From a virus, in IMG/VR virus record IMGVR_UViG_3300013111_000300, positions 1-21,304 of that record: 21,304 nucleotides of DNA; one strand, given 5' to 3'. Shown here in pieces: positions 530 to 19,754 of the stretch. The notes under the pieces were generated by a model that worked only from the letters and a program-made list of their open reading frames with translations, was not told where the DNA came from and did not search any database. The first letter of the stretch is position 1. Every line of letters starts with the position of its first letter. The translations under genes were made by a program, and so were the position numbers.

Positions 530-584
530 TCATTCTCTCCTTCATACCACGGACAGCCGGGGCCGGGATATAAAAGCGTTTCTT

Positions 585-1187
585 CTAGTATTCCGTGATT
601 CCCCTCACACATTCGATGACAATCTCGTCAATCTGATCTTCCCCGAGCTCTAAATACAGAGTAGTCGTTTCAACGTTGGCATGCCCGAGCGCTTGCTGTG
701 TAAGGTATAGGTTTCTTCCGCTAGCCTCAAACACCGAATTAGCGAAGGTTTTCCGCATTGAGTGAGTGCCGATGGTGCCTTCCAGCTCGTTCTCTTTCGC
801 CGCTCGGTTTATAACCCGGTAAGCATGTTCTCTCGTCATAGGCTGATCCAAGGTGGGCTTGCCGCTGAACAGAACCGCGTCGTCAAACAGCCTACCGCGA
901 TCCGCGATCTCGTCAATGTATGCTTTCAAGGCTTCTTGCGCCCTGGGATGCAACTTGACAGTACGAGATGTTTTCTTGCTCTTCATGCTCTTGCGCTGAA
1001 CGGACACACGATCCGTTACCTTGCTCCCCTGGAAAACGTCTTTTACTCTCAAGCTCAACAGCTCCGTGATCCTGAATCCGGTGGCGCGGCCCAGCCAGAA
1101 CAGCGCCCGGTTTCGTTTCTCATGCTTGCCGTAGAACGTCTTGCTTATCAATTCACATTCCTCGTTAGTTAGCGGTCGGCACCTCAT
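585..1187 (-). CDS. Minimal tyrosine recombinase / integrase
   Basis: This is a 200-residue tyrosine site-specific recombinase reduced to the catalytic domain. The catalytic set is visible: Arg39 in ATGFRITELL, a candidate Lys in the basic KSMKSKKTSR segment (residues 66-75), His142 and Arg145 in THSMRKT, His169 in LGHANVETT, and the nucleophile Tyr178 in LYLEL. Family members normally have an extra N-terminal core-binding domain of about 80-100 residues, which is absent here. The ATG at 1185-1187 has a GGAGC ribosome binding site and overlaps the upstream stop as ATGA. It sits inside the leftward operon rather than beside an obvious attachment site, so it could act as an integrase or as a Xer-like resolvase of phage DNA multimers. 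The family is certain and the exact role is not. Confidence 0.9.
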   Translation of the reverse strand: MRCRPLTNEECELISKTFYGKHEKRNRALFWLGRATGFRITELLSLRVKDVFQGSKVTDRVSVQRKSMKSKKTSRTVKLHPRAQEALKAYIDEIADRGRLFDDAVLFSGKPTLDQPMTREHAYRVINRAAKENELEGTIGTHSMRKTFANSVFEASGRNLYLTQQALGHANVETTTLYLELGEDQIDEIVIECVRGITEY

Positions 1188-1363
1188 CCCCAGCTCCTTT
1201 CTATGGGAACAGGCAAGCCGATATTGGCTTGTGTCTCATCACTTACTCCTTTTTGAACCCATATTTCATACAAGGGGCAATCGGTTGAGCAGGTGCCGTT
1301 TTCAATCGGCTCCGGTATCTCAATCGTCTCCCGGCATACACGCAGAAGCGGACGGGTTTTCAT
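1184..1363 (-). CDS. Small cysteine-containing protein, unknown
   Basis: The 59-residue product has a C-x3-C motif (CSTDC near residues 25-29) and an additional Cys near residue 8. I recognise no family. The preferred start is the ATG at 1361-1363, because it overlaps the TGA of the upstream gene as ATGA and follows a GGAGG-rich site. A GTG six bases further upstream is an alternative. Its own stop overlaps the recombinase ATG by four bases, so the two are probably translated together. A role as a small partner or regulator of the recombinase (an excisionase-like position) is possible, but no DNA-binding motif is evident. Confidence 0.6.
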   Translation of the reverse strand: MKTRPLLRVCRETIEIPEPIENGTCSTDCPLYEIWVQKGVSDETQANIGLPVPIERSWG

Positions 1364-1707
1364 TGCCACCCCCCTCCATATTCAAGGACATGGTAATAGG
1401 GTGAATTATCTACGACCCCAACAAGAAAGTTGCATCTAGCACATGTATCCTCATACCATGCTTCAGGGTAAAGCGCCTTATTTCCCGAGCCTATAACAAC
1501 TGTGCATCCACATTTGGGGCAAAAGGGATATGGTTTAATAATAGTTGATTGAGGAAACGGTTGTGGGATAAGTTTAATTGCCCCAATACGCTTTTTTAAA
1601 GTGCTACGATTTAATCGTTTTCCCAGTACGGCCCTTTTTTGTTTTCGAGATAATTTTTCTCCTCTATACAATCGGTTATACCCTCTCTGGTAATGTTTTG
1701 TATTCAC
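1360..1707 (-). CDS. Zinc-ribbon-like protein, unknown
   Basis: The N-terminal third of this 115-residue protein is very basic (runs such as LSRKQKRAVLGKR), suggesting nucleic acid contact. The C-terminal half has a CPKCGC knuckle near residue 63 and a CARC knuckle near residue 89, a four-cysteine zinc ribbon. It starts with GTG at 1705-1707, which follows a well-placed AGGAGA site. No ATG lies in a better position. The stop overlaps the next gene's ATG as ATGA. Base composition is clearly lower in GC than the neighbouring DNA-processing genes, which may mark it as a separately acquired cassette. The specific function is unknown. Confidence 0.72.
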   Translation of the reverse strand: MNTKHYQRGYNRLYRGEKLSRKQKRAVLGKRLNRSTLKKRIGAIKLIPQPFPQSTIIKPYPFCPKCGCTVVIGSGNKALYPEAWYEDTCARCNFLVGVVDNSPYYHVLEYGGGWQ

Positions 1708-1708
1708 C

Positions 1709-1786
1709 TCAGTCTCCTTTCAGCCCGCCCCGCAATTGCAATGCACAGGTTAAAACTTGTATGTTATTTGCCGGGTTAGTTACCAT
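1709..1786 (-). CDS. Possible 25-residue leader peptide
   Basis: A very short frame begins at an ATG (1784-1786) that follows a GGAGAGG site with four-base spacing. It ends immediately before the GTG of the zinc-ribbon gene, so its stop lies within that gene's initiation region. It could be a leader that couples translation across the gap, or a remnant of a lost gene. The rest of the 1708-1843 gap holds no other convincing frame. A 22-residue frame from about 1843 lacks a ribosome binding site. Confidence 0.25.
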   Translation of the reverse strand: MVTNPANNIQVLTCALQLRGGLKGD

Positions 1787-1843
1787 CTAGCCTCTCCAGA
1801 TTTGTGTTGACAGTTGTCGTTAGGCGGGACGGGCGTTTGTTCA

Positions 1844-2203
1844 TTATTCTATTTTCCTTATCAACGCCACCGCCTTGTCGTAGTGCGGTATCTCGCCAGG
1901 GCTGAGAAAATCCGTCATGCCACGGTGCCGGATTTCCTTGTCGTTCGCCAGCACGATAGCCCTGAAGTCAGGATCGTCCATAAGCTCCGGGTGATGCATG
2001 ACGCCGTTAATAACAGCCTGGATATCCTTTTCGGGTATGTCGTGCGCGTATTCCTCGTATTCGCTCAGATCGGGCACGGTAAGGTAGCATTCCTCGCTGG
2101 CATTCGTGCATTCGATTCCGTGCTCGATCATGTGGAACCGATCCGATACCCCGATCCGGCAGTCGTCGTTCGTGTAATCACAGCCGCAGATTTTGAATTC
2201 CAT
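1844..2203 (-). CDS. Acidic small phage protein, unknown
   Basis: The product is about 119 residues, rich in Asp and Glu. It has cysteines near the start (CGC at 6-8, and near 14, 32 and 39) but no paired knuckle typical of a zinc ribbon, no membrane segment and no family I know. The ATG at 2201-2203 overlaps the upstream stop (TGATG). A GTG three bases earlier also overlaps it and cannot be excluded. No strong ribosome binding site is seen, consistent with re-initiation from the upstream gene. It is a hypothetical early-operon protein. Confidence 0.65.
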   Translation of the reverse strand: MEFKICGCDYTNDDCRIGVSDRFHMIEHGIECTNASEECYLTVPDLSEYEEYAHDIPEKDIQAVINGVMHHPELMDDPDFRAIVLANDKEIRHRGMTDFLSPGEIPHYDKAVALIRKIE

Positions 2204-2427
2204 CACGCTACCACCGTCGGTTTGGGTTTCGGCTTCGAGTTCCGGTTCCGCTTCGGTAACTGCGACCGGCGTCCGAACAGTCCGATCACGCCGATGGCTA
2301 TCAACTCCCAGCCGCTTGTGCCCTGAGTGACTATCGCTTGTGCTACGCCGCCGAGTATTGACGCAATCGCGGCCTTGCCTGTGCCAGTGTTAAGCAGTTT
2401 TTTCGTTGTTCCTGTAGGGTATTTCAT
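2203..2427 (-). CDS. Small two-segment membrane protein, holin-like
   Basis: The 74-residue protein has two hydrophobic stretches, roughly residues 18-34 (AAIASILGGVAQAIV) and 39-52 (WELIAIGVIGLFG), separated by a short turn. A strongly basic, proline- and lysine-rich tail follows (KPKPKP). Two short membrane segments with a charged tail are typical of small phage holins. No endolysin gene lies nearby, however, and the surrounding genes act on DNA. An AGGAGA site precedes the ATG, which overlaps the upstream stop as ATGA. I am sure it is a gene and probably a membrane protein; holin function is only a suggestion. Confidence 0.75.
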   Translation of the reverse strand: MKYPTGTTKKLLNTGTGKAAIASILGGVAQAIVTQGTSGWELIAIGVIGLFGRRSQLPKRNRNSKPKPKPTVVA

Positions 2428-3077
2428 TCGTGGTTCTCCTTTTCAACGACCCCGGCAGCACTCCGACGTTTGGTGTTATGAGACACGTTCGGTTTGGGAA
2501 GGAGCTTTCCCAGGTAGGTATCGGAGCCTGTTCCGGGGTCTGTGGTTATTCGTTCAATGGCGTACGTGCCTATGCAGACCGCCGCCGCGATATTGTGATC
2601 GGTGATTCTCTCCTGATGCCCGAACGAGCGGGCCAGGGCGTTCGCTATCTGTAGGCTTTTCGCCTGTATCGCCTTGCTCCCACGGTACAGCGGTATGCCG
2701 GTAATGCTCGGCATCCAGTCCATAGGGTTGACGCCCTCGGGCAGATACGACCAGCCAGCCAGTTGAGCGGCGAGCTGTAATTTGCCGTGCATCCTGATGA
2801 GCGCCATCACAGCGCGTATATTGTCCTGCGCCGTTTTGGTGTCGGACTCGATATCACGCTTGGCGATGTACTGACCTTCACATACAAATATACAGAAGTC
2901 ATTCGCACGGCTCAGCGACCGGAGAAATAGCTGCTGTTCATCCCACCAACCCTTGCGTTTTATCGCTGACAGGTTGCCGGTGCGCCATACTTTATGCAGA
3001 CGGGTATATTTGTCTATCACTTCATACAAAACAAACGCCGGGCGCTCGACTTCAGGGTCGCAGGAGAGCAGGATCAT
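2424..3077 (-). CDS. RuvC-like RNase H-fold protein (putative Holliday junction resolvase)
   Basis: The 217-residue order of elements resembles RuvC-type resolvases. There is a first strand with Asp7 (LLSCDPE), Glu67 in FVCEGQ at the second acidic position, and a central helix with an Asn-Arg-Met-His-Gly segment. A Lys-Ser helix then precedes a final TDHNIAAAVCIG helix. RuvC relatives usually end this helix with two acids in a D-x-x-D-A pattern. Here Asp160 is present, but the next expected acid is Ala, with Asn162 nearby. The enzyme would resolve recombination or packaging junctions if active, but the altered site may mean a changed or lost activity. The ATG overlaps the upstream stop as ATGA. 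The fold assignment is moderate. Confidence 0.55.
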   Translation of the reverse strand: MILLSCDPEVERPAFVLYEVIDKYTRLHKVWRTGNLSAIKRKGWWDEQQLFLRSLSRANDFCIFVCEGQYIAKRDIESDTKTAQDNIRAVMALIRMHGKLQLAAQLAGWSYLPEGVNPMDWMPSITGIPLYRGSKAIQAKSLQIANALARSFGHQERITDHNIAAAVCIGTYAIERITTDPGTGSDTYLGKLLPKPNVSHNTKRRSAAGVVEKENHE

Positions 3078-3802
3078 TCTTCTTCCTCGTGGTATTCATA
3101 TGTCGATCCATCTTCTGACAGACGATAGTATTCCCCTGCTTCGGTAAGTTTGAAAGCAAGCTCATAGCCCTCTTTGGTGTTGGTTAGTTCTTCCTCTGAT
3201 ACAATCTCGCTTTCGCGATATACTCGGCGGCCGACATTGTTCCCGGTATCCTCATCCGCCCATTCGTGGGTGATGCCTGACCCGTTACAGCGTGCGGCGA
3301 GTTCTTCAATTACCGGGTGCGGCGCGCTCCATGCTGTCTCGAACCGGATTGTTTTGTCGTCAATACGTTCGAAGCCGTAGGCGTTCCACTTAGTACCCCA
3401 GCGCTTAATACTCCAACTGTACCAGTTCATGTGCCCGCCGGTTGCTTTCCATGCTTGGAGATATTTGATAAAGAGGCTGAATTCCTTATCGTCAAAGTCT
3501 TTCGGCATTCGGCCCTCTGTCATCTGCCGAATACCATATGCATTGCTCGTTTCAAGCCTTGCAAGCACCGCGTCGATCGCCTCCTCTGCCGGGTGTGCCT
3601 TTGGTGGTTTAAAAGAAATCAGCCCCAATGCAATTTGTGCTATCAGTTCAATGTAAGCGGGTGCGCTTTCTTTTGAGATTATTTCAGGCATCGGGATGAT
3701 TTTGTTGAAATCGACGCGGGGTTCTCCTTTGTCGTCGCAACCTAGAAGTAACTCGATGACCGCTAGGTCAGCCGTGATTCTGTTCGTTACATGATTAGGC
3801 AT
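3074..3802 (-). CDS. YubB/DUF1281-like ferredoxin-fold protein
   Basis: The 242-residue product begins MPNHVTNRI and has a WGTKWNAYG motif near residue 140 after a Trp-rich stretch. These are the two hallmarks of the DUF1281/YubB ferredoxin-like family found on phages and plasmids. The molecular role of that family is not established. The C-terminal third is strongly acidic and ends in a run of Glu. I chose the ATG at 3800-3802 because it carries the family N-terminus and has an AAGGAT ribosome binding site. A further in-frame ATG 36 bases upstream would overlap the previous gene and add non-family residues. It lies in the leftward DNA-processing operon. Confidence 0.75.
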   Translation of the reverse strand: MPNHVTNRITADLAVIELLLGCDDKGEPRVDFNKIIPMPEIISKESAPAYIELIAQIALGLISFKPPKAHPAEEAIDAVLARLETSNAYGIRQMTEGRMPKDFDDKEFSLFIKYLQAWKATGGHMNWYSWSIKRWGTKWNAYGFERIDDKTIRFETAWSAPHPVIEELAARCNGSGITHEWADEDTGNNVGRRVYRESEIVSEEELTNTKEGYELAFKLTEAGEYYRLSEDGSTYEYHEEEE

Positions 3803-3806
3803 AGCA

Positions 3807-3965
3807 TTATCCTTTCTTCTTGAAAACCAGGTATTCAAGCGCCTGCTTATAGGTCAAGGTAACCCCGTGCTCCTCGAACGTAGTCTGCTTGAGCAGATCG
3901 AGAAGGCGAAGCACTCTCCCGCTAATCCGAACTGATCTGTCTGGCGGATATTCGCCTTTCTTCAT
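3807..3965 (-). CDS. Small ribbon-helix-helix-like protein (second of a pair)
   Basis: This 52-residue frame fills the gap between its neighbours. The ATG at 3963-3965 overlaps the stop of the preceding gene as ATGA, and the stop lies just before the YubB-like start. The sequence reads as a short strand (SVRISGRV), a helix, a turn at HGVTLT, and a second helix (YKQALEYLV). The same plan, including a G-V-x-L-(T/S)-x-x-Q-A element, is seen in the gene just upstream, so the two look like related tandem ribbon-helix-helix-type proteins. A DNA-binding or antitoxin-like regulatory role is possible; no partner toxin is visible. Confidence 0.62.
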   Translation of the reverse strand: MKKGEYPPDRSVRISGRVLRLLDLLKQTTFEEHGVTLTYKQALEYLVFKKKG

Positions 3966-4138
3966 TCCTTCTTTTCTCCCTTTGATAACGCAAAGTCTAT
4001 CGCTTGGGCCTTCGATAGCTTGACGCCGGTTTTTTTGGCAAATTCTGCCTGAACTTTCTTCACTACTTCCTGGGTGTTCGGTGAGATGTTCACCGAAACC
4101 TGTTTCGGTTTCTCTGTTTTTTTGTCTTCCTGCGACAT
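3962..4138 (-). CDS. Small ribbon-helix-helix-like DNA-binding protein
   Basis: The 58-residue product has a charged N-terminal arm rich in Lys and Glu, a strand (QVSVNIS), helix 1 (TQEVVKKVQAEFAKK), the turn TGVKLS and helix 2 (KAQAIDFALS). This is a CopG/Arc-like ribbon-helix-helix outline. The ATG at 4136-4138 is preferred because an AAAGGAGC site lies at the right distance. Longer in-frame starts would run into the SSB gene. It overlaps the next small gene by four bases. Members of this fold bind DNA as dimers and often autoregulate. Function here is inferred from the fold only. Confidence 0.7.
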   Translation of the reverse strand: MSQEDKKTEKPKQVSVNISPNTQEVVKKVQAEFAKKTGVKLSKAQAIDFALSKGEKKE

Positions 4139-4163
4139 TTGGTTGCTCCTTTTTATTGTGAGG

Positions 4164-4811
4164 TTATAGTCCTTCAATCTCGTCCTCGACAGGCGATTCG
4201 CGATCAGGCGAGAACGGGTCACCGGAACGATACAGCTCACGGAGGTCGATATCGCTTAACCCTTTCATCACAGCGACGGCCTTGTCGGGTATCGGTGATT
4301 TCGGTTTCGGTGTGACTGAGTACATGTTCGGCTTTTTCGCGTCGTCCCTAGTTATCAGTATGTCGTACTCGAACGGGTCGCCCCAGTCGGTATCCCCGAT
4401 GAGTGCGAGGATATCGGACCATATCGTTTTTTGTGTGATTTCGAGTATGTATATCTGCTCGTCCTTGTACGCCCAAAACGCATGGAATACGCGGGCGCGT
4501 CCGTCAGCGGTCGCCTTGATATCGTCCGGCACGGCTACACCCACGGGTGCGCGATACGGGCGGCGCACCTTCTGCGGCTTGCCCTGGTCGTCATCCTCAA
4601 CATCCTCGTACCACGTCACGGTTCCGTTGACCATGTGCGGGCTACCGTTCAGGCATGGCATGATGCGGATCCGGTGGTCGCCCTGTACGAGCTTCAGATA
4701 TCCCGGCAGCGTCGGTTCCTTGTACCCGTCGGGTAGAAACGTCCGCTTTTTCGCTTCCTCGACCGCCTTGAGTAAGGCGTTATTCTGCGGTGTCTGTTTT
4801 TTCGTTGACAT
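4164..4811 (-). CDS. Phage single-stranded DNA-binding protein (gp32-like)
   Basis: The 215-residue protein shows the pattern of phage single-stranded DNA-binding proteins. There is a core with HRIRIMP near residue 46, then the segment FHAFWAYKDEQIYILEI followed by TQKTIWSDILAL, then a WGDPFEYDILITRDD stretch and a YSVTPKPKSPI segment. The end is a Ser/Asp/Glu-rich acidic tail (DEIEGL), as usual for proteins that recruit replication partners through an acidic C-terminus. It would coat ssDNA during replication and recombination beside the RecB-like nuclease and RuvC-like protein encoded in the same operon. The ATG at 4809-4811 has an AAAGGAGC site. I did not identify the four-cysteine zinc site of T4 gp32, so it is a zinc-less relative. 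Confidence 0.72.
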   Translation of the reverse strand: MSTKKQTPQNNALLKAVEEAKKRTFLPDGYKEPTLPGYLKLVQGDHRIRIMPCLNGSPHMVNGTVTWYEDVEDDDQGKPQKVRRPYRAPVGVAVPDDIKATADGRARVFHAFWAYKDEQIYILEITQKTIWSDILALIGDTDWGDPFEYDILITRDDAKKPNMYSVTPKPKSPIPDKAVAVMKGLSDIDLRELYRSGDPFSPDRESPVEDEIEGL

Positions 4812-4959
4812 GGTTTTGCTCCTTTGAAAGTATGGATAAAAATTTAGCGACGGGCTTGATGTTGGCGAATTCGGCTAAGACAAGGCGCTTGAGAGTTCGG
4901 CATTCCTTGCGCAGTTCTTCAAGTTGTTCGTAAAGGGTTGTTTTATCCTTTCGGATCAT
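4780..4959 (-). CDS. Putative 59-residue helical protein
   Basis: This short frame starts at the ATG at 4957-4959, just after the stop of the preceding small gene, with a GAGGTG site that spans that stop. It ends 32 bases inside the SSB gene in another frame. The product is highly charged and probably coiled-coil (YEQLEELRKECRTLKRL), with a hydrophobic helix after it. I recognise no family. The ribosome binding site and the lack of any other gene in this gap support it; the sizeable overlap with the SSB gene weakens it. Confidence 0.45.
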   Translation of the reverse strand: MIRKDKTTLYEQLEELRKECRTLKRLVLAEFANIKPVAKFLSILSKEQNHVNEKTDTAE

Positions 4960-4967
4960 CCATCACC

Positions 4968-5126
4968 TCAATTCATACACGAACCGGTCATCGCCTCAAC
5001 AGCTCCTTTAAAGGGCGGCATTATCTCAATCCTTGATAGGTTTTTAGTCAGCCTACCTTCTACAGAAATATATGGTATCCCATGCTTAATTAAAGTGAAG
5101 CCTATGCGTCCGCTTATACTAGGCAT
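4968..5126 (-). CDS. Putative 52-residue small protein
   Basis: The frame starts at an ATG at 5124-5126 that overlaps the last codons of the RecB-like gene by eight bases, and ends nine bases before the next small ORF. An AGGGAAG stretch lies about a dozen bases before the start. The product is a mix of short strands and loops with no motif I know. Position and overlap favour translational coupling, but composition is AT-rich and alternative internal ATGs exist, so confidence is limited. Confidence 0.42.
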   Translation of the reverse strand: MPSISGRIGFTLIKHGIPYISVEGRLTKNLSRIEIMPPFKGAVEAMTGSCMN

Positions 5127-6087
5127 TCAAAAACTCGCTTCCCTTCAGGTTATCGTAATAGCCGGTGCCGGTCGTACTCCACAGCGCACTGCATGCGTTC
5201 AGATGGTCGCAACCCTCACAGCCGTACTTGCCCTGGCCCGTGTACCAGTTACCCCGGCGCATGCTGGCGGCGATACGGACGATCTGTTTCTTCCAGTATT
5301 CGAGCCATTCACGGGTTACGGGGAACTCATAGATACCGGGTCCGCGAAGTGCGCCCCTAGGTATTTTCCACTTCGAGCCGTCGTTCGCCTCATCGAAACC
5401 CTGAGCGGCGGCCCATTCGTTCCACGCGGCGTTGTGGGATATTTTCGCCTTAGTCGTGTTCCGAGCGTACGGTATCCAGTCCTTGACATGAACCCACATG
5501 AACGAATCGATAAGCAGTCCGAACTCCTCCTCGACGGCCCACGCGTACAACGGGAACTGTAGCAGTCGCGTCATTGTCGCATCGCCGGGTTTCATGTTAC
5601 CGGTTTTCCAGTCGGGTAGTGTTACCCTGTTGCCGAGCCGGGCCAGCAGGTCAAGCCGCCCTTCGAATACATACGGATTCTCGATAGTGCGTGGTGTTGA
5701 AAATTCAAAGCTCCACTGATGTTCGACCTGCATGGTCTCGTATACGTCGAACCTGTCAGCATACTGCGGGAACCACGCCTCCAGCTCTGCGCAATAGTCC
5801 GCGACGACCTCCAGCGGGGATTTGCCGTTGTCGGGGTACTGAACCGGCACTTTCGATGAACGCTCGACTGCATCCCAGGTTTGTGAATACCCGATCTGTT
5901 CGCCGGTTTCGTGCCAGCCGTGAAGGATACGGTGCGCGACTGTGCCAGCCACCGCCGCCGCTGACCTGAACTCCGGGCGTCGGTCCGCGTCAAGGTCAAA
6001 CAACAACCGTTGCGGGCATTCGCGATACCGTTCCAGCGTTGACTGATGGAGGCGTATCGACTGCATGATATCGGTGGGTTTGGTCAC
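5119..6087 (-). CDS. RecB/AddB-like PD-(D/E)XK nuclease with iron-sulfur cluster
   Basis: The 322-residue protein carries a complete RecB-family nuclease domain. It has GTVAHRILH (His52), the acidic GRLDLLA (Asp146), the core DWKTG with Asp159 and Lys161, and the downstream QFPLYAWA motif (Gln177, Tyr181). Cysteines at 24, 290, 293 and 299 (the last three as C-x2-C-x5-C) match the iron-sulfur staple seen in AddB and Cas4-like nucleases. It would process DNA ends or flaps during phage recombination, acting with the neighbouring SSB. The start is GTG at 6085-6087, which overlaps the upstream stop as GTGA and follows an AGGTG site. An ATG 21 bases further in is an alternative. A Cas4 role is unlikely, as there is no CRISPR locus here. 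Confidence 0.85.
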   Translation of the reverse strand: MTKPTDIMQSIRLHQSTLERYRECPQRLLFDLDADRRPEFRSAAAVAGTVAHRILHGWHETGEQIGYSQTWDAVERSSKVPVQYPDNGKSPLEVVADYCAELEAWFPQYADRFDVYETMQVEHQWSFEFSTPRTIENPYVFEGRLDLLARLGNRVTLPDWKTGNMKPGDATMTRLLQFPLYAWAVEEEFGLLIDSFMWVHVKDWIPYARNTTKAKISHNAAWNEWAAAQGFDEANDGSKWKIPRGALRGPGIYEFPVTREWLEYWKKQIVRIAASMRRGNWYTGQGKYGCEGCDHLNACSALWSTTGTGYYDNLKGSEFLNA

Positions 6088-6413
6088 GCCGCACCTCGCA
6101 ATTTCCCGCTGAGTATACTTTTCAGCGTGCGGATGTTCTTCTGTATGCCGCGATGTGCTACTCGGAGACCGTAATAGCAGTGGTTACAGCTCTCGCTGTA
6201 TGAGCTGGTCACTTCAACCAGCCCGTTCGCGCCCAAGTCGAGCGCGTAGTTGCTGACCTGAAAGTCCTTTTCACGCTGACGACGACCAGCGGCATTCGGG
6301 CGCGGTTTCCAGAAGTACGAATTTGCGTAGTCCCCATGCACCTTGAGTGTTCGCTCGATTGCGGCCCGCGCCTGGGGGCTGAGCCGTTGTCCGGTTACCT
6401 TGAAGGTTTTCAT
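6084..6413 (-). CDS. Hypothetical first protein of the leftward operon
   Basis: The 109-residue protein is basic and has a SYFWKPRPNA segment near residues 32-41, a block of Arg (GRRQREKDF), and CNHC near 76-79. The last segment is a basic helix. I do not recognise the family. It is the first gene after the leftward promoter and overlaps the RecB-like nuclease start, so a role linked to that nuclease is likely by position. The ATG at 6411-6413 is preceded by an AAAGGAGC site. The CxxC is a single pair, so metal binding would need a dimer or other ligands. Confidence 0.75.
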   Translation of the reverse strand: MKTFKVTGQRLSPQARAAIERTLKVHGDYANSYFWKPRPNAAGRRQREKDFQVSNYALDLGANGLVEVTSSYSESCNHCYYGLRVAHRGIQKNIRTLKSILSGKLRGAA

Positions 6414-6580
6414 CGGTTGCTCCTTTCGTGTCTCACTTCGGGCTGTTTCGTCCTTTTGGACTCGTCACAGGCAGGGCGCACACCCCACGACAGCCCGCCC
6501 GGAGGCGGGGGTGATTACTTTACTTTCCCGTGATAATGAAGCGTATGCGAATTGGTTGGTTCTCTGTGTCTCATATCTAT
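6414..6580 (-). other. 5' leader of the leftward operon
   Basis: About 160 bases lie between the predicted leftward transcription start and the first leftward gene, with no convincing gene on either strand. The minus-strand transcript can form a GC-rich six-pair hairpin with a four-base loop (6494-6509) and a small GTCC-AAAA-GGAC hairpin nearer the gene. An AAAGGAGC site lies just upstream of the ATG. A TTTACTTT copy sits at 6519-6526. No T-run follows the hairpin, so it is not a classic terminator. It could affect mRNA stability or translation. Confidence 0.5.
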
Positions 6581-6609
6581 AATATACACTGGGTTTCAGG
6601 GCTTGTCAA
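6581..6609 (-). promoter_or_regulatory. Strong leftward sigma-70-type promoter
   Basis: On the minus strand, TTGACA (6604-6609) is followed by exactly 17 bases and TATATT (6581-6586). This is a perfect -35 and a five-of-six -10 with ideal spacing. It faces the leftward operon, whose first gene begins about 160 bases downstream. The tandem AAAGTAAA repeats adjoin the -35 box, so regulation from them is plausible. Confidence 0.8.
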
Positions 6610-6611
6610 CA

Positions 6612-6633
6612 AAAAAGTAAATAAAAAGTAAAA
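6612..6633 (+). repeat. Tandem 11-bp repeats between divergent promoters
   Basis: Two adjacent 11-base units, AAAAAGTAAAT and AAAAAGTAAAA, sit one helical turn apart between the two outward-facing -35 boxes. The same AAAGTAAA core recurs as TTTACTTT at 6519-6526, 8410-8417 and 8416-8423, and as AAAGTAAA at 8488-8495 and 8495-8502. The position suggests operator sites for a protein that controls both promoters, for example the ribbon-helix-helix product encoded just downstream, or replication iterons. Confidence 0.7.
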
Positions 6634-6644
6634 TAAAATTAACG

Positions 6645-6673
6645 TTGACATAACGAGCCTTGCAGATTAAGTT
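6645..6673 (+). promoter_or_regulatory. Rightward promoter for the helicase operon
   Basis: TTGACA (6645-6650) is followed by 17 bases and TAAGTT (6668-6673). The -35 is perfect and the -10 is weak, matching at the first, second and last bases. It directs transcription into the ribbon-helix-helix and helicase genes. A weak -10 fits a promoter that needs an activator or is easily repressed. The predicted transcript start is near 6680. Confidence 0.55.
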
Positions 6674-6706
6674 ACTCTAAATGGCGAAAGCCGGAAAGGA
6701 CTACTG

Positions 6707-6910
6707 ATGGAAAGCACAGCGTTACCAAAACCACGACCTCGCGTAACCGGACCAGAATCGACCAATCTCGGACTTGCTTTGCCGCCGAAGGAACAAGCCG
6801 CTCTAAAGGAAATAACCGATCGGTTCCCTGAACTATCGAAATCCGAGGCGGTTCGTTGGGCGATTATTCATGCCGCGAACTATCTCCGCAATCACGCGGA
6901 GGAGGGCTGA
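6707..6910 (+). CDS. Ribbon-helix-helix DNA-binding protein, possible operator-binding regulator
   Basis: The 67-residue product has a basic, proline-rich N-terminal arm, a strand (STNLGLALP), a helix (KEQAALKEITDRF), a turn (PELSKSE) and a second helix (AVRWAIIHAANYL). This is the CopG/Arc ribbon-helix-helix plan. Such proteins bind tandem short repeats as dimers and often repress their own promoter. Here tandem AAAGTAAA repeats lie directly upstream between two promoters, so it is the best candidate for their ligand. The ATG has an AAAGGA site six bases away, and the stop overlaps the helicase ATG. It could alternatively be an accessory replication initiator. The fold is fairly sure; the target is inference. 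Confidence 0.75.
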   Translation: MESTALPKPRPRVTGPESTNLGLALPPKEQAALKEITDRFPELSKSEAVRWAIIHAANYLRNHAEEG

Positions 6911-8340
6911 TGTACCGACTAAATGACTTGGGTCACTCCAAGCGGTTTGTCGATTTATATGGTTCGCACTTGCGGTATGTTCATGATTGGAAAACATGGA
7001 TGTATTGGATTGGTGATCGGTGGATATATGACACGACGCAAAATTCCCACGTGCTGGCGAAAACCATCGGCGAAGAAATACGAAAAGAGGCCGAGGAATA
7101 TGCTGACTCGGATGATAAGGGCGAGCGAAAACTTTACGATCAGTTGATGAGAGCTGCGAGCCGGGCAGAAGAAGCACCGATGATAAAGAAGATTCTGTGG
7201 ATGGCGCAGTCGGATAGTCGAATGTCAACGGTATCCAATATGTATGACGATGATCCGTTGAGGGTCAATACGCCATCAGGAACTGTCGACTTACTTTTGG
7301 GCGGCCTTGATAAGCACCGACCTGAAGATTTACTGACGCAGGTTACGCATAAGGAAGCGAAATTCAACCTCGAAGCGACCTGCCCTTTGTGGTTGGATGT
7401 GTTGAACGTATTATTTCATGGTAGCCAGGAATTGATCGATTACGTCAATCGTGCTGCAGGCTATAGCCTTTCGTCAAAAATGTCGGAACAGTGCCTTTTT
7501 TACTGCTATGGCACAGGGGCAAACGGTAAAAGCATATTTCTGAACACGCTTAAAAATCTAATGGGCGGGTATGCTTGTCAAGCAATGCCAGGGACTTTTG
7601 ATGCTCGCGGGGCCAAGCGTTCCATACGTGAGGATCTCGCCCGCCTACGAGGGAAGCGCCTTGTGATTACTACAGAGATGAAGAAAGGTGAGCCCCTCGA
7701 CGCCGAGACTATTAAATCAATGACGGGCGGCGATACAATGGTCGCAAAGAATATTTATGAAAAGCCGTTTGAGTTCGATCCATATTTCAAAGTATGGTTC
7801 GCTGCGAATACCCAGATGCCGGTCCCAGAGGCCACGCATGGCATGTGGCGAAGGTTGAGAGTAATCCCTTTTACAGCGAAAATTCCGAAGGAAAAACAGG
7901 AGAATTTTGAAACGCTGATGTGGAAACTGGAAAGGGAATATTCGGGAATATTGAATTGGTTGATTGAGGGATACGCGGCATGGTGCGAACGCGGGCTCGA
8001 TCCGCCGATGGAAGTGATCAAGGCGACCGCTGACTACCAAGCGAATCAGGATAAGGTGGGCGAGTTTATCGCGCTGCATTGCGTAACCGGCGAGGGCTTA
8101 TCGGTCACCCTGTCGGACATATACGCTCGATTCAAACAATGGTACGAGGACGAGTGGGATAATTTTCCGATGGGTAAAAACACCTTTGCCAATGAGCTGA
8201 GAGAACGCGATTATGAATCAGACCGAGGATATCGAAACGCAGCGATTCATCGCGGTATTGATCTGAAACCAATCGTTGCGGTAGTGCCAGAACCGCCAGC
8301 CGAGAACGAATGGGACGACGAAAAGGCCCTGCCCTTTTAA
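6910..8340 (+). CDS. D5/P4-type SF3 replicative helicase
   Basis: The 476-residue protein has a D5_N-like N-terminal region (LRYVHDWKTW at 21-30 and GDRWIYD) followed by a superfamily 3 helicase. Walker A is GTGANGKS at 201-208 and the Walker B region is LVITTE at 251-256. The sensor-1 Asn is in WFAAN (296-300), and an Arg pair in MWRRLRVIPF (313-322) supplies the arginine finger. The C-terminal part resembles the winged-helix Pox_D5 region. Fused P4-type primases are about 780 residues with an N-terminal primase; that part is absent, so priming must come from another protein or the host. The ATG overlaps the upstream TGA and follows a GGAGG site. It would unwind the phage origin, probably close by. 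Confidence 0.9.
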   Translation: MYRLNDLGHSKRFVDLYGSHLRYVHDWKTWMYWIGDRWIYDTTQNSHVLAKTIGEEIRKEAEEYADSDDKGERKLYDQLMRAASRAEEAPMIKKILWMAQSDSRMSTVSNMYDDDPLRVNTPSGTVDLLLGGLDKHRPEDLLTQVTHKEAKFNLEATCPLWLDVLNVLFHGSQELIDYVNRAAGYSLSSKMSEQCLFYCYGTGANGKSIFLNTLKNLMGGYACQAMPGTFDARGAKRSIREDLARLRGKRLVITTEMKKGEPLDAETIKSMTGGDTMVAKNIYEKPFEFDPYFKVWFAANTQMPVPEATHGMWRRLRVIPFTAKIPKEKQENFETLMWKLEREYSGILNWLIEGYAAWCERGLDPPMEVIKATADYQANQDKVGEFIALHCVTGEGLSVTLSDIYARFKQWYEDEWDNFPMGKNTFANELRERDYESDRGYRNAAIHRGIDLKPIVAVVPEPPAENEWDDEKALPF

Positions 8341-8615
8341 AAGTTTAATTTCCGTTTAATTTCCCAAAATGGCGCAACCTCTAGTGTCATAAGCGATTAA
8401 CCCCAAAAGTTTACTTTTACTTTCGATCCGCAACTCTTTTTATATAGGGCTTTTATATACACCCTCATGTACATACTTCTGCATATAAAAGTAAAAAGTA
8501 AATATATCCTTGTTATCTCTGACAGCCTAATGAGTTAGGTGCGTTTAAGTAGGGTTTAACTTTTAATTTCTGCATTACTCATACCGTGAACCCTCTGTCA
8601 CACCCGAGACAGCAC
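8341..8615 (+). other. AT-rich repeat-bearing intergenic region, candidate origin
   Basis: No gene is supported here on either strand. The region holds two TTTAATTTCC copies 11 bases apart (8344-8353 and 8355-8364) and a third TTTAATTTC at 8562-8570. Two overlapping TTTACTTT lie at 8410-8423 and two AAAGTAAA at 8488-8502. An inverted repeat CTTTTATAT (8450-8458) / ATATAAAAG (8483-8491) and a CCTAA-TGAG-TTAGG hairpin (8526-8539) are also present. Dense short repeats, AT-rich tracts and position next to an SF3 helicase fit a replication origin. A regulatory region for the late promoter is the alternative, and both may be true. Confidence 0.5.
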
Positions 8616-8644
8616 TTGACACACCCCGATTAAAAGTGTAGAAT
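8616..8644 (+). promoter_or_regulatory. Strong rightward promoter of the late operon
   Basis: TTGACA (8616-8621) is followed by 17 bases and TAGAAT (8639-8644). This gives a perfect -35, a five-of-six -10 and ideal spacing. It precedes the sulfotransferase gene and, with no terminator in sight, the whole packaging and structural operon. A CTGTC/GACAG inverted repeat (8595-8612) lies just upstream of the -35. Confidence 0.8.
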
Positions 8645-8652
8645 ATTCTACA
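8637..8652. promoter_or_regulatory. Perfect 16-bp palindromic operator over the -10 box
   Basis: TGTAGAATATTCTACA is a perfect palindrome covering the whole -10 box and reaching the predicted transcription start near 8651. A dimeric repressor bound here would block polymerase. Spacing differs from the E. coli LexA box (CTGT-N8-ACAG), so LexA is not the obvious ligand. No cognate repressor gene is recognised in this window. Confidence 0.7.
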
Positions 8653-8668
8653 GCATGGCGGTGAGCCG

Positions 8669-9277
8669 ATGATAATCTCGCATAAACACCAGTTCATATT
8701 CATCAAGACGTTCAAGACAGCGGGTACGTCTATTGAGATGTACCTTGCGCAGTTCTGCGGGCCTGACGATATCCTTACGCCGGTAAACCCTGCGGCTGGC
8801 GAACACGAACCCCGCAATGGCGACGGCTATGAGCAACACATGACGGCCGAGCAGGTGCGGGCGAGGGTAGGATCGGATACCTGGGCCGAGTATCTTACTT
8901 TCTGCGTCGAGCGTAACCCGTGGGATAAGACGGTATCTCACTTCTTCCATGATCGTGCACACCACGGCGGGCCGGACACGTTCGGCGAGTACATACGGCG
9001 CGGACATTTCCCACATAATATGCAGTTCTATACTAACGGCACGGGCGCACCGATAGTCGATGAGGTGCTACGGTACGAAACGATCAACGCGGATCTGACT
9101 CGTGTGTTCAAGAGCCTGGGGATACCGTTCGCTGGTGCGCTCAATGTATGGGCGCTATCGCTGAGCCGTGAGGATAAGGGCCATTACAGCCGGTTTTACC
9201 CGCCGGAGCATCGAGGCGTGATCGAGGGCGCGTTCGGCAGGGAAATCAGAATGCACGGATACACGTTTGATGAGTGA
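8669..9277 (+). CDS. Phage-encoded sulfotransferase
   Basis: The 202-residue protein has both cofactor-binding signatures of PAPS-dependent sulfotransferases. KTAGTS at 16-21 is the 5'-phosphosulfate loop and RNPWDKTVS at 82-90 is the 3'-phosphate motif. The C-terminal YETINADLTRVFKSLGIPF and HYSRFY segments match the compact bacterial Sulfotransfer_2-type layout. It would move a sulfuryl group from PAPS to a hydroxyl or amine acceptor, often a sugar; the acceptor here is unknown. It is the first gene after the late promoter and overlaps the methyltransferase start by eight bases. The ATG has only a weak GGTGAG site and overlaps the stop of a five-codon mini-ORF. A cell-surface glycan is the likeliest target by family habit, but that is inference. 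Confidence 0.88.
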   Translation: MIISHKHQFIFIKTFKTAGTSIEMYLAQFCGPDDILTPVNPAAGEHEPRNGDGYEQHMTAEQVRARVGSDTWAEYLTFCVERNPWDKTVSHFFHDRAHHGGPDTFGEYIRRGHFPHNMQFYTNGTGAPIVDEVLRYETINADLTRVFKSLGIPFAGALNVWALSLSREDKGHYSRFYPPEHRGVIEGAFGREIRMHGYTFDE

Positions 9278-10475
9278 CAAGCGCAAAATAGACGAGCTGA
9301 TACCGGATGCGGATAACGCCAACCTCGGCACTGACCGTGGGCGCGAGCTGCTAAAGCAATCGCTGGCAGACTTCGGTGCTGGCCGTTCGATATTGCTCGA
9401 CAAGGAAGGCCGGATTATTGCCGGTAATAAGACCGTCGAGGGAGCGCGTGAGGTCGGCATCGATGACGTGGTGATCGTGCGCACGACAGGCAACCAGCTT
9501 GTGGCTGTCCAGCGTGATGATCTCGACCTGGAGGACGGCGACGGGCGGGCCAGGCGGCTGGCGTATGCCGATAATCGGATAGCGGAGGTTGATCTCGAAT
9601 GGGACGTTGACCAGATAGTCAAGGACATCGAGGCGGGTGTTGATATCGAGGGCATGTTTGAGGGGTTCGAGCTACCGACACCGGAACGCGAAGGGCTGAT
9701 CGATGATGACGACGTGCCGGAACCCGAGGAAGCGATTACGAAGCTGGGCAACTTGTGGACACTCGGCGAGCATCGGTTACTGTGCGGCGACGCGACGAAG
9801 GGCGAGGATGTTGAGCGGTTGATGGATGGGGAGAAGGCGGATTCGATAGTTACCGATCCCCCGTTTTTCACACCAGCGGCACACTATCAATCGCGGGTCA
9901 AGCATCAGCGCAAGTTTGCAGATTTAAGCACCCTGTCAGGTTTTTGGGAACAGGTTCACAATGCATTTATGCCATATCTAAAAAGCGAAGGGCATAGCAT
10001 CGTTTTCTGTAACCATGACAGTTACGCAGTGTTCTATCCGGTAATGTTTTCACGCTACGACAAGACGAAGAGCCTTGTGTGGGATAAAACCCGCGTTGGT
10101 TTAGGGCGTATATTCAGAAACCAACACGAGTTGATAATATGGGGCAGAAATGAAGGGCATTACTTTAAGCCCGATGGTGATCTACATGCTGACGTGCTGA
10201 GCTATGCGGCAACGCTTTCAAAGGACAGGGAGCACCCGGTCGAGAAGCCAGTTGCATTGTTAGTCGCGCTCGTGACGCCGCTAACACCACAAAAGGGCGT
10301 TAGCGTTGATTTATTTGCAGGTGGCGGCTCAACCCTCATCGCTTGCGAGAAAACGGGCCGCCGCTGTTACGGCATGGAAATCGACCCGCACTATTGCGAT
10401 GTAATAGTCAACCGCTGGGAGCAGTTCACTGGTGAAAAGGCTGTCTTGATGTCAACAAATAAAAAGGCGCAATGA
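9270..10475 (+). CDS. ParB-like nuclease domain / DNA methyltransferase fusion
   Basis: The 401-residue protein starts with a ParB/Srx-like domain (residues about 5-105, with DKEGRIIAGNKTVEGA at 44-59). It continues as an amino-group (N4-cytosine or N6-adenine) DNA methyltransferase. The catalytic motif is DPPF at 196-199, a variant of DPPY. HPVEKP at 322-327 and the AdoMet-binding DLFAGGGST at 347-355 follow, giving the beta-class motif order. Such fusions are common beside phage terminases and probably protect phage DNA or mark it. The ATG at 9270 overlaps the sulfotransferase gene; a TTG three bases earlier is possible. GC content falls sharply after DPPF, about 55-60% before against about 40% after, suggesting a recombined 3' half. 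Confidence 0.9.
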   Translation: MSDKRKIDELIPDADNANLGTDRGRELLKQSLADFGAGRSILLDKEGRIIAGNKTVEGAREVGIDDVVIVRTTGNQLVAVQRDDLDLEDGDGRARRLAYADNRIAEVDLEWDVDQIVKDIEAGVDIEGMFEGFELPTPEREGLIDDDDVPEPEEAITKLGNLWTLGEHRLLCGDATKGEDVERLMDGEKADSIVTDPPFFTPAAHYQSRVKHQRKFADLSTLSGFWEQVHNAFMPYLKSEGHSIVFCNHDSYAVFYPVMFSRYDKTKSLVWDKTRVGLGRIFRNQHELIIWGRNEGHYFKPDGDLHADVLSYAATLSKDREHPVEKPVALLVALVTPLTPQKGVSVDLFAGGGSTLIACEKTGRRCYGMEIDPHYCDVIVNRWEQFTGEKAVLMSTNKKAQ

Positions 10476-10479
10476 ATGA

Positions 10480-10851
10480 ATGTCGAAACCGACGCTAAAC
10501 ACGAAGGAAGTTGCCAAGCTCATAAAGAAACACAAGGGCTTCCTATCGTACGTGGCGAAGGAGCTTGGATGTTCATACCGCACGATCCACCGATACACGG
10601 TAAAGTACGCCTGTTGCAAGGACGCTTACGCGGAAGCGAAGGAGTCCCGCAAGGACTTCGGCGAGGCGATGCTGATCAAGAATATGAAAGCGGGCAAGGA
10701 CGCGAGTATCATATTCTTTCTCAAGACCCAGGCGAAGGATCGCGGCTACGTGCAGGACGACAAGCGGCACGATACTGAGGCGTTGAAGGAAGCGGTGGAC
10801 AGGATTAACGCGGTCCACAATGCACTGAAATTGGACGATGGCGAAAAGTAA
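10480..10851 (+). CDS. terS: Terminase small subunit
   Basis: The 123-residue product has a helix-turn-helix near residues 20-45 (FLSYVAKELGCSYRTIHRY), a helical middle, and the MLIKNMKAGKDASIIFFLKT segment followed by KDRGYV. This last block is typical of phage small terminases that recognise the packaging site and load the large subunit. It lies directly before the large terminase gene and overlaps it by 14 bases. The start is the ATG at 10480, four bases after the methyltransferase stop, with an AAGG site in the preceding coding region. An ATG four bases earlier is in another frame. Confidence 0.8.
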   Translation: MSKPTLNTKEVAKLIKKHKGFLSYVAKELGCSYRTIHRYTVKYACCKDAYAEAKESRKDFGEAMLIKNMKAGKDASIIFFLKTQAKDRGYVQDDKRHDTEALKEAVDRINAVHNALKLDDGEK

Positions 10852-12094
10852 CACACAACCATATTTCAGCTTGAAGCAGAAGCAGGTATACCACCGGGCG
10901 CACCGTAAAATTAATATCCTGTCCGGCAGCATGACCAGCGGCAAGACGTACATCACGAACCAGATATGGATTGACCGGCAGCTTGGCGCACTCGGCCCGA
11001 TACCTGACGGCGATTCGATTATCGTCGGGCGAACGCTTGGCACGGTACGACAGAACGTCATTAACCCGATACTCAAGATGGCGGGCGCATTGGCCCGGAT
11101 ACGACGTGAGGACGGATTGAGTTACCTCCACATCGGCGAACGCCGGGCGTGGTATGTAGGCGCTGACAAGGAATCCGAGTACACAAAAATCCTGGGTAAA
11201 ACGTTTGCTGATGGATACGCTGATGAGCTGACAGAGATACCCGAAAGCGCGGCGTCACAGGCTATCGGCAGGACGCGGGGCCGGTTCTTCGGTACCACGA
11301 ACCCCGGCTCGCCGTATCACTGGCTGAACCGCGAGTATATCAGTCAGTCCCGTGACGATACGTATTGCGCGACGTTCGGACTACTCGACAACCCGTCTCT
11401 GAGCGACGAACAGCGGGCCGATATTCTGTCACGGCTCAAGGGCCTGTTTTTCAAGCGATACGGTCAAGGGTTATGGGTAGCAGCGGAGGGCGTGATTTAT
11501 GATATGTTCGACCCTACGGAACTATTACCGGCGGCTGATGCGCCCGATACGGGAGATAGAAGCGTTGCTGGCATCGATTACGGAACATCAAACCCGTGCG
11601 TTTATGGATACTACCGACGACATGAAGGACGAGTCTATAAGCTCGACGAATGGCGATGGGACAGCCAGGAAACCGGACGACAAAAAACAGATAGCCAGTA
11701 CGCCGACGACTTTACCGCTTGGCTCGGACGACGTCCACTTGATTACATAGTCTGTGACCCGTCAGCGGCGAGCCTCAAGGTAGAGCTTCGATTACGCGGT
11801 TACATGGTGCGTGATGGAGACAACGACGTTCTCGCGGGCATACGGCACACTGCCGAAATGCTCGGCTCCGGGCGGCTGGTTATCACTGAGGGCTGTCCGA
11901 ATACGGCGTTGTCACTGTCGGCCTACTCATGGGATCCAGCGGCACAACGGCGGGGTCAGGATAAGCCATTGAAACAGCACGACCACGAAGCGGACGAGAC
12001 GCGATACATAACGATGGACTTGATACCGCCGATGGTTGGTGATACTGATATGCCTCAGACAGCGGGCGTAACCGAGAGCGTAAGGGTAGCTTGA
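10838..12094 (+). CDS. terL: Terminase large subunit (PBSX/Terminase_3-like)
   Basis: The 418-residue protein is the packaging motor. The ATPase domain has Walker A SGSMTSGKT at 29-37, an acidic Walker B-type DELTEI near 129-134, and an FGTTNPG coupling motif near 151. The nuclease domain has an RNase H-like Asp247 in AGIDYGT and DYIVCDPSAAS further on. It pumps DNA into proheads and cuts concatemers. Length is normal for the family. The stop overlaps the portal start as TGATG, and no frame break is seen. No intein or insertion is present. Confidence 0.95.
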   Translation: MAKSNTQPYFSLKQKQVYHRAHRKINILSGSMTSGKTYITNQIWIDRQLGALGPIPDGDSIIVGRTLGTVRQNVINPILKMAGALARIRREDGLSYLHIGERRAWYVGADKESEYTKILGKTFADGYADELTEIPESAASQAIGRTRGRFFGTTNPGSPYHWLNREYISQSRDDTYCATFGLLDNPSLSDEQRADILSRLKGLFFKRYGQGLWVAAEGVIYDMFDPTELLPAADAPDTGDRSVAGIDYGTSNPCVYGYYRRHEGRVYKLDEWRWDSQETGRQKTDSQYADDFTAWLGRRPLDYIVCDPSAASLKVELRLRGYMVRDGDNDVLAGIRHTAEMLGSGRLVITEGCPNTALSLSAYSWDPAAQRRGQDKPLKQHDHEADETRYITMDLIPPMVGDTDMPQTAGVTESVRVA

Positions 12095-14307
12095 TGAAAA
12101 CACCCATGATGATATATGAGGAACAGGGCGGCAACGGCACGCAAACCGTGAAGCCTCCCCAGGGCGAACAGGCCCTTGCGGCGGTCGATACCGAACTGAG
12201 TGCATGGCTGGCCGGGACGCCCGACTACAATCCCGATGACATCGAGATATCGACATACCGCGATATGGCCAAACGTGACGACCAGGTAAAAGCATGCCTG
12301 AAACTGAAAAAGCTCGCTATCCCCGCGCCCGGCTGGAGGCTCGACCCGTTCGACGATACGCCCGAGGCTGAGCGACAGGTCGAGTTCACGGAGGACGTGT
12401 TCACGCGGATGCCCGGCTCGATTATGCGCATGTTCATGGACTCGCTTTCCGCGATAGCGTACGGATACAGCATTCAGGAGCCGGTATACGAGCCGATTAT
12501 CGCGGGCGACTGGGCGGGTAAATGGGGCCTGAAAGCTATCAAACTCAGACCCGCCGAAACGTTCGGGTTCGTGTCGGACAAACATGGCAACCTGACCAAG
12601 CTCAAGCAGACCACCAGCTTCGGGAATGACATACCGCTCAAGCCCGAGGACTTCATTATTTGGACGTACGGCGAGGAAAGCAACCGGCACTATGGCGATT
12701 CTGACCTCCGGGCCGTGTATCGGAACTGGTACGCGAAGGATATACTTATCCGGTTCTGGAACGTATTTCTTGAGAAGTTCGGCGCACCGACGATGGTGGG
12801 CGAATATGAACCGGGCACCGGTAAGCCTGAGCAGGATAAGATACTCGCCGTCCTTGAACAGATAGCGTTCTCTAAGGCGGTCGTATTACCGAAGGGCTGG
12901 AAGCACGAACTACTGGAAGCGACCCGAACCGGCAAGGCGTCATACCTCGACGCGGTGAAATATCACGACCGCGCTATTGCCAGGGGACTGCTTATCCCGT
13001 CACTGCTCATCGAGGAAGGCGACCGGGGCAGTCGTGCACTGGGTGACGACCATCTCGATATATTCCACTTGACCACATCGGCCACCGGTGACGAGCTTGC
13101 GGAAACGGTATACACCGAACAGCTCATCAGGCGGCTGGTGGCGTTCAACTTCGCCGACCCGAAACCGCCTCAGTTTGTATGGAACGACCGCCAAGCTAAG
13201 GACCGTAAGGGAACCGTTGACGAGATAACCAGGATGATAGTTGCTGGCGTGCTCGATCCAACTGAAGCGTGGATACGTCAGGTTATGGACTATCCCGAAT
13301 GGGAGGAACCGGAGTTCATTCGTAGCGCGGAAGCGTACGGGCTTGATTCCGGGGTCAGCGGCGAGGTTGTCAAGTACGATATCGGCGGCATGCGGTTCGA
13401 CCTGGACACCGGCGAGCAGAACACTTTCGACGGCGTGACGAAGGTACTCGAATCCGAGCTGAAGCGTATCGAAAAGATGGTGCCCGACCTGCTCAAGTCG
13501 AAGAACCAGCAGCGGGTCGCCAAACTCGAAATCAAAAAGGTCAACCAGCTCCGTGACGTGTTCAGTCGCGAGATGAATCAGAGCTGGGCGAACGGCCTGA
13601 CGCATGCGCACAAGGAAACCGAGCGCGGTATAGGCGAACAGCTCAAGTTCACCATGATGGCCGAAACGAAAACCGAGGTATACGCGAAAAAGGACGTTCC
13701 TCCGGTAGCGAAGGACGCATTGGCCGCTATCAAGGCCCGCGTGCCGATGACCTGGGACGAGGTAAAGGACATCTCGTGGGACATACACCGGCGGGCGTTC
13801 CTGATAGCGGACGTTCTCGCGGTCGATGTGGTGAAGCAAGCTAAACTGGTATTGATGGAGGGTATCAGCGACGGCCTAAGCGTTGAGGAAACCACGCTGA
13901 AACTGCGAGAATCATTCGCGCCGTTCGTTGGGCTGGAGGTCGCCGAGGACGTGATATCACCTTACCGACTGGAAACCATCACCCGTAATGCGATGGCGAA
14001 ATCATTCAATGATGGCCGGTGGGCGTTCACTGAGTCGCCAGAGCTGGATCAGTTCCTCGCCGGGTATGAATACGTGGCAGTGCTCGACGGCAGAGTGACC
14101 GACCTGTGCGAATCACTGGACGGTAAGTTTTTCAAGCGCGGCGATCCTGACCTTGAGAATTATCGCCCTCAAAATCACCATAATTGCAGGTCACAGCTTA
14201 TCACCATGACACGGCACGAGCCGTTCGACGTGACACCGAAAGACCAGTTGCCGCCCAAAGCGGATATACCGAAAGGGTTCCGAGGCCCGGAAGGAGCGCG
14301 GACGTAA
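12094..14307 (+). CDS. Portal protein fused to MuF-type head morphogenesis domain
   Basis: The 737-residue product joins two proteins. Residues about 45-360 are a Mu gp29/DUF935-like portal (YRDMAKRDDQVKACLKLKK, SAIAYGYSIQEPVY, a conserved GDSDLRAVYRNWYAKD). The C-terminal part ends with the SPP1 gp7/MuF signature: VLDGRVTDLCESLDGK followed by PQNHHNCRSQL near residues 665-705. A long helical linker (about 430-520) lies between. The portal forms the twelve-subunit DNA gate; MuF sits inside the head and often carries ejected cargo. The start is the ATG at 12094, overlapping the terminase stop. In Mu and SPP1 these are separate genes, so this is a fused form. No cargo toxin domain follows the MuF end. 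Confidence 0.88.
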   Translation: MKTPMMIYEEQGGNGTQTVKPPQGEQALAAVDTELSAWLAGTPDYNPDDIEISTYRDMAKRDDQVKACLKLKKLAIPAPGWRLDPFDDTPEAERQVEFTEDVFTRMPGSIMRMFMDSLSAIAYGYSIQEPVYEPIIAGDWAGKWGLKAIKLRPAETFGFVSDKHGNLTKLKQTTSFGNDIPLKPEDFIIWTYGEESNRHYGDSDLRAVYRNWYAKDILIRFWNVFLEKFGAPTMVGEYEPGTGKPEQDKILAVLEQIAFSKAVVLPKGWKHELLEATRTGKASYLDAVKYHDRAIARGLLIPSLLIEEGDRGSRALGDDHLDIFHLTTSATGDELAETVYTEQLIRRLVAFNFADPKPPQFVWNDRQAKDRKGTVDEITRMIVAGVLDPTEAWIRQVMDYPEWEEPEFIRSAEAYGLDSGVSGEVVKYDIGGMRFDLDTGEQNTFDGVTKVLESELKRIEKMVPDLLKSKNQQRVAKLEIKKVNQLRDVFSREMNQSWANGLTHAHKETERGIGEQLKFTMMAETKTEVYAKKDVPPVAKDALAAIKARVPMTWDEVKDISWDIHRRAFLIADVLAVDVVKQAKLVLMEGISDGLSVEETTLKLRESFAPFVGLEVAEDVISPYRLETITRNAMAKSFNDGRWAFTESPELDQFLAGYEYVAVLDGRVTDLCESLDGKFFKRGDPDLENYRPQNHHNCRSQLITMTRHEPFDVTPKDQLPPKADIPKGFRGPEGART

Positions 14308-14576: not shown

Positions 14577-14578
14577 CG

Positions 14579-16260: not shown

Positions 16261-16274
16261 CGGAGGTACCGAAA

Positions 16275-17282: not shown

Positions 17283-17283
17283 A

Positions 17284-17336: not shown

Positions 17337-17356
17337 GAACTGGGGCGAGGTAGGCC

Positions 17357-19741: not shown

Positions 19742-19754
19742 TCGGAGGTTTTTA

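Follow-up and report, generated by a model that had tools for sequence, protein, structure and literature searches.

The SF3 initiator alpha of satellite phage P4, which has a fused primase, reads a short word in two separate noncoding regions, ori and crr. Classical iteron-plasmid origins of the RepE/pi type consist of regular direct repeats of about 20–22 bp that are read by a Rep protein other than a helicase. The origins of PICIs are situated immediately 3′ of rep and contain two sets of iterons around an A+T-rich region, and PICI/SaPI origins have been described as sharing no plan with other known bacterial replicons (PMC6092414). The Cch2 helicase of SCCmec recognizes, by means of its C-terminal domain (residues 400–538), iterons situated immediately after its own gene (PMC7581432). 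We examined a phage locus in which a short word is repeated on both sides of an operon coding for an SF3 helicase, and compared it with these systems and with related viral loci.

Genome setting and distribution of the repeat word

The DNA analyzed, hereafter the window, is the complete 21,304-base IMG/VR record IMGVR_UViG_3300013111_000300, a tailed-phage fragment. Its leftward genes include those for an integrase, an SSB-like protein and a PD-(D/E)XK exonuclease, and its rightward genes those for a 67-aa ribbon-helix-helix (RHH)-like protein, an SF3 helicase, a sulfotransferase-like protein, a ParB/MTase protein and, further on, terminase, a Mu-type portal, capsid E and a tail tube. The sulfotransferase-like gene (8669–9277) lies between the putative origin described below and the gene for the ParB-like/N6-N4 methyltransferase protein (9267–10475). 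The Mu-type portal and a Mu F-like head protein, annotated as separate genes in many of the matched phages, occupy here one reading frame of 738 aa (12091–14307). On the minus strand, the leftward early block contains a gene for a protein with an Api92-like DUF1281_C domain (3074–3838) and two small ORFs (3807–3965 and 3962–4240) with an RHH-like pattern by eye and no family match, which, from their sequence, might alternatively encode a DNA-binding regulator. GC skew, proposed in a first-pass annotation of this DNA as a way to map the start of replication, does change sign near 6.0–6.5 kb; because transcription also diverges there, the switch was set aside as origin evidence.

The word AAAGTAAA occurs in seven exact copies in the window, against 0.52 expected from shuffled sequences (0 of 100 shuffles reached seven). 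The copies are at 6519, 6614, 6625, 8410, 8416, 8488 and 8495, exactly as the first-pass annotation had listed them. It had also placed every copy in the noncoding DNA flanking the RHH-like and helicase genes, with none noticed elsewhere, and both statements hold for the whole window: all copies fall within 6414–6706 and 8341–8668, either side of the helicase operon, and the count against a shuffled background that it had suggested reveals no chance-level copies inside genes. The number itself was too low. When G or T is allowed at position four (AAAKTAAA), the window contains ten copies, the three additional ones (8344, 8355 and 8562) being all within 8341–8668; there are thus three in 6414–6706, seven in 8341–8668 and none elsewhere. 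Read as TTTAMTTT, the core is followed by a pyrimidine in all ten copies.

The word is A+T-rich and the stretch 8341–8668 has only 38% G+C, as would suit repeats arisen by chance in A+T-rich noncoding DNA. However, local dinucleotide shuffles gave 0.07 expected copies against the three observed in 6414–6706, and 0.15 against the seven in 8341–8668, and 0 of 5000 reached the observed count in either stretch, so that a chance origin is ruled out for practical purposes. The same virus is represented by another record, IMGVR_UViG_3300009378_000637, which shares its sequence with the window from base 11297 onward, apart from three differences in 10 kb, and continues for a further ~9 kb; AAAGTAAA is absent from this record, including the additional ~9 kb, where the AAAKTAAA scan found one stray AAATTAAA.

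Repeats 3′ of the helicase gene in the window and in related loci

The noncoding stretch that immediately follows the helicase gene (8341–8668, plus strand), with its seven AAAKTAAA iterons, is a putative replication origin. The helicase gene stops at 8340 and the nearest cores, 8344 and 8355, belong to a tandem 11-bp repeat, two copies of GTTTAATTTCC (8343–8364, plus strand), which makes up the first iteron set and lies where the relatives described below have their first iterons. The iteron pair TTTACTTTTACTTT (8410–8423, minus strand) is the left arm of an inverted arrangement, whose right arm is the pair AAAGTAAAAAGTAAA (8488–8502, plus strand). Between them, a 64-bp spacer (8424–8487) containing TTTTTATATA and CTTTTATATA has 64% A+T, against 47% for the record, and is a candidate melting region. 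An outlying iteron, AAATTAAA, is found at 8562–8569 (minus strand), and a rightward sigma-70-type promoter (TTGACA-17-TAGAAT; 8616–8644, plus strand) precedes the gene starting at 8669. Counted from the helicase stop, with TTTAMTTT as “+”, the offsets of the seven iterons are +3 +14 +69 +75, −147 −154 and +221. When seven sites were placed at random, 0.3% of trials produced paired inverted sets separated by a gap of this kind. A classical iteron-plasmid origin of the RepE/pi type was considered and rejected, because neighboring copies are irregularly spaced, with 8-bp cores 6, 7 or 11 bp apart and in both orientations, and the adjacent gene codes for a helicase.

The same region could be a single large stem-loop origin like that of pRN1, the repeats being merely its arms; as in pRN1, an operon pairing RHH-like and SF3 genes is followed, some 65 bp past the stop codon, by an inverted repeat of ~100 bp (PMC4234260). 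Nevertheless, the single-stranded fold of 8395–8515 has −8 kcal/mol and a z of −1.3, no better than shuffles (21 of 200 were as stable), and not the stable 100-nt stem-loop of the pRN1 type; moreover, the arms do not account for every copy of the word, as some lie beyond them and others at the promoter. We therefore regard this possibility as very remote.

Scans with single sequences did not identify a true relative of the helicase, the RHH-like protein or the exonuclease, and close relatives of the helicase were not found. A profile search with the helicase led to 80 viral loci with 31–38% identity, and phages added more; among plasmids, no relative was found at the DNA level. A weak match to a Rhodococcus plasmid (E 0.05) was dropped because it was inside a larger hypothetical gene, and loci L002–L009 were dropped as chance matches to a reading frame without a comparable protein. 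In each locus, the sequence immediately following the helicase stop codon was compared with the remainder. Of 51 loci, the window included, 25 had the 350 bp after the stop codon ranked within their top 5% by unique repeated 8-mers, and in 18 this stretch ranked first.

The iteron words are phage-specific (TGGAGGGT, AGGGCAGG, TGACGGGT, GCATAGTT and TCTGACGG, among others) and the arrangement is common: as a rule, the first 40 bp after the stop codon contain one to three copies, sometimes with another near +75 to +100; then come a spacer mostly of 53–77 bp, more A+T-rich than the locus it belongs to, and finally copies in the opposite orientation. A strict version of this geometry (the same 7-mer in opposite orientation across a gap of 50–85 bp, with at least three copies) was present in 22 of 50 downstream regions of relatives, and in 21 of 2475 control windows taken from these loci; since the loci are not all independent, the associated P value serves only as a guide. 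Exact copies are situated at +3 +13 −31 +91 / −174 / +234 in L015, at +0 −26 +87 / −168 / +229 in L019 (both among the best-scoring relatives) and at +3 +79 / −155 / +213 in L031; the last of each, near +213 to +234, is an outlying copy like the 8562 iteron of the window. The iterons of the relatives are mostly confined to the 3′ side of the helicase gene.

No close relative has the iteron word of the window, and this word is by itself, as the compared sequences stand, not conserved evidence. Because in L015 and L019 AAAGTAAA is found within the A+T-rich spacer and a different word serves as iteron, some of the window copies could be part of a melting element; the flanking positions of the copies and the GTTTAATTTCC tandem right after the stop codon argue for iterons.

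Arrays of 8-mer iterons with the common geometry were seen in Acidithiobacillus phage AcaML1 (L010), in Lactobacillus phage vB_Lga_AB1 (L012) and in loci L015, L019, L020, L031, L034, L035, L037, L042, L052, L063, L088 and L090, and constitute ready origin predictions. A AACTTTTCTATATA / CTCTATA element recurs inside the A+T-rich spacers of the relatives (for instance, in L090 at offsets 23–92), where the words CTCTATA and AAAGTAT are over-represented, and is possibly a common melting or priming signal; for comparison, the spacer of the window contains AACTCTTTTTATATA at 8433–8447.

Candidate DNA-binding proteins and the promoter-side repeats

The gene at 6910–8340 (plus strand) codes for the putative initiator, an SF3 helicase with D5_N and DUF5906 (primase_Cterm) domains and a predicted C-terminal winged helix. 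The protein matched the profiles D5_N, DUF5906 and TIGR01613, and profile searches found no primase domain in it. In an AF2 model built on 34 window and locus sequences (mean pLDDT 91), residues 382–452 show the helix/strand order of a winged helix, at the position from which Cch2 reads its iterons (PMC7581432). The top Foldseek matches of the model are viral prim-pol helicases, and the helicase profile matches, along the helicase and the C-terminal part, the primase-helicase of PDB 7ola, which we take to be the SaPI5 protein. Profiles thus identify the helicase, and the model assigns a putative DNA-binding role to the C-terminal winged helix, the part with which related initiators bind such repeats.

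The first gene of the helicase operon (6707–6910, plus strand) codes for the 67-aa protein, classed as RHH in the first-pass annotation. Its sequence pattern and a model with helices at residues 27–39 and 45–66, in the places expected for RHH (pLDDT 71), are consistent with that identity, which found no support in Pfam, NCBIfam, PDB sequence or fold searches; Foldseek and VIA-align returned neither an RHH protein nor a clear match. Since the single-sequence model is weak, the missing fold match is no evidence against an RHH fold.

Upstream of this operon, in 6414–6706, one iteron-like site (6519–6526, minus strand) is in the leader of the leftward transcript, within the longer match TTTACTTTCCC, and two more, 11 bp apart (6614–6632, plus strand), adjoin the −35 box of the leftward promoter and are inside a weak rightward one. 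The leftward promoter is of the sigma-70 type (TTGACA-17-TATATT; 6581–6609, minus strand) and, read as 6609–6581, is with that at 8616–8644 one of the two best matches in window positions 1–20000, one per noncoding region. The first-pass annotation had described 6614/6625 as an exact 11-bp tandem between divergent promoters: the spacing is exact, but the 11-mers differ at one base, and only the leftward promoter is strong, the rightward one having 9/12 matches (6606–6634). The 6519 copy faces the 6614/6625 pair in opposite orientation across 87 bp, outside the 50–85 bp of the strict geometry, with the leftward promoter between them. The fold of this promoter region is no more stable than that of shuffles. 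These extra copies are, judging from the loci compared, an unusual feature of the window, as promoter-side copies are mostly absent from the relatives.

RHH proteins commonly bind tandem short sites before their own gene. If this habit, widespread among them, extended to the 67-aa protein, all copies might be its operators, repressing its own operon at 6519–6632 and a promoter or the origin at 8410–8502; the 6614/6625 pair, the sole tandem repeat of the promoter region, overlaps both promoters. The operon of pRN1, besides, combines an RHH repressor with an SF3 replication protein (PMC4234260). We consider this improbable, because repeats with the same geometry, and a different word each, are found 3′ of related primase-fused helicases, which points to the helicase as reader, and because the family, PDB and fold searches left the RHH fold unconfirmed. 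Rather unlikely, though less so, is that similar A+T-rich words have two readers, with the helicase recognizing the 3′ cluster and the RHH-like protein the promoter pair. The 3′-side location of the relatives' iterons would agree with two readers, as would the 11-bp spacing and T-rich flanks of the promoter pair, which differ from most origin copies; however, the 6519 copy carries the longer word TTTAMTTTCC, as do the iterons right after the helicase stop, and makes separate readers less simple. Given the same word in both regions, it is simplest to suppose that the origin-binding protein acts at the promoter as well and limits early transcription.

Proposed origin and comparison with known systems

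We consider it probable that the repeats are initiator-binding iterons (TTTAMTTTY), with the 3′ cluster as origin and the promoter copies as a probable control of early transcription. The irregular spacing of neighboring copies weighs against this proposal, as do the 87 bp that separate the promoter-side sites and the scarcity of such sites in the relatives. Iterons are favored over RHH operators at 8341–8668 because place, orientation and spacing match the repeat sets of the relatives, so that of the options in the first-pass annotation (RHH operators, iterons or both) iterons gain support there, and RHH operators persist as a candidate only for the promoter cluster. According to our proposal, the seven copies at 8344–8569 would form the origin, and the helicase would bind them through its C-terminal winged helix and load, as a ring, on each inverted set (8410–8423 and 8488–8502), with melting of the 64-bp A+T-rich spacer between the sets and start of replication. 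The three copies at 6519–6632, which lie on either side of the leftward promoter and overlap its weak rightward counterpart, probably serve autoregulation, by which the initiator or the small RHH-like protein, or both together, would hold down early transcription. More tentatively, and with somewhat less than even confidence, one word may serve both the origin and a three-copy switch bracketing the divergent early promoter, the level of a self-loading helicase, with or without an RHH-like partner, setting early transcription and replication together.

The window resembles P4 in having a short word in two separate noncoding regions and a (putative) SF3 initiator, and differs from it in that its helicase lacks the primase fused to alpha. 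By analogy, the layout of its origin is best read as a PICI/SaPI-type plan: as in the rep-ori of these elements, it is directly 3′ of the initiator helicase gene and has two short iteron sets, here inverted (8410/8416 and 8488/8495), around an A+T-rich region (PMC6092414, PMC7581432), and the predicted initiator is of the D5_N/Primase_Cterm kind, like SaPI5 Rep. In contrast to PICIs and SaPIs, the window is part of no satellite but of a phage that encodes terminase, portal and capsid itself; its helicase is without a primase domain, its iteron is TTTAMTTTY, and further copies are present in the promoter region of the operon. With Cch2 from SCCmec it shares a stand-alone D5_N/Primase_Cterm helicase and short iterons downstream of its gene, with a C-terminal reading predicted for the window; the Cch2 iteron is AAGTG in a 23-bp direct-repeat block, whereas the window has more copies and inverted sets (PMC7581432), and the Cch2 partners CCPol-MP were not seen in it. 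The likeness to pRN1 (orf56/orf904) is in the order of a small RHH repressor gene (RHH-like in the window), an SF3 replication gene and a 3′ origin, but pRN1 has a fused prim-pol and requires a 100-nt stem-loop without iterons (PMC4234260), whereas iterons are present in the window and a significant hairpin is not.

With this analysis, a hitherto unexplained repeat yields a specific origin prediction for an uncultured phage, and the origins of phages are linked with those of PICI/SaPI satellites. The plan, in which inverted iterons lie 3′ of an SF3 helicase gene on both sides of a ~70-bp A+T-rich spacer, can be recognized in the sequences of many phages whose iteron words differ, which makes their origins and the specificity of their initiators predictable.
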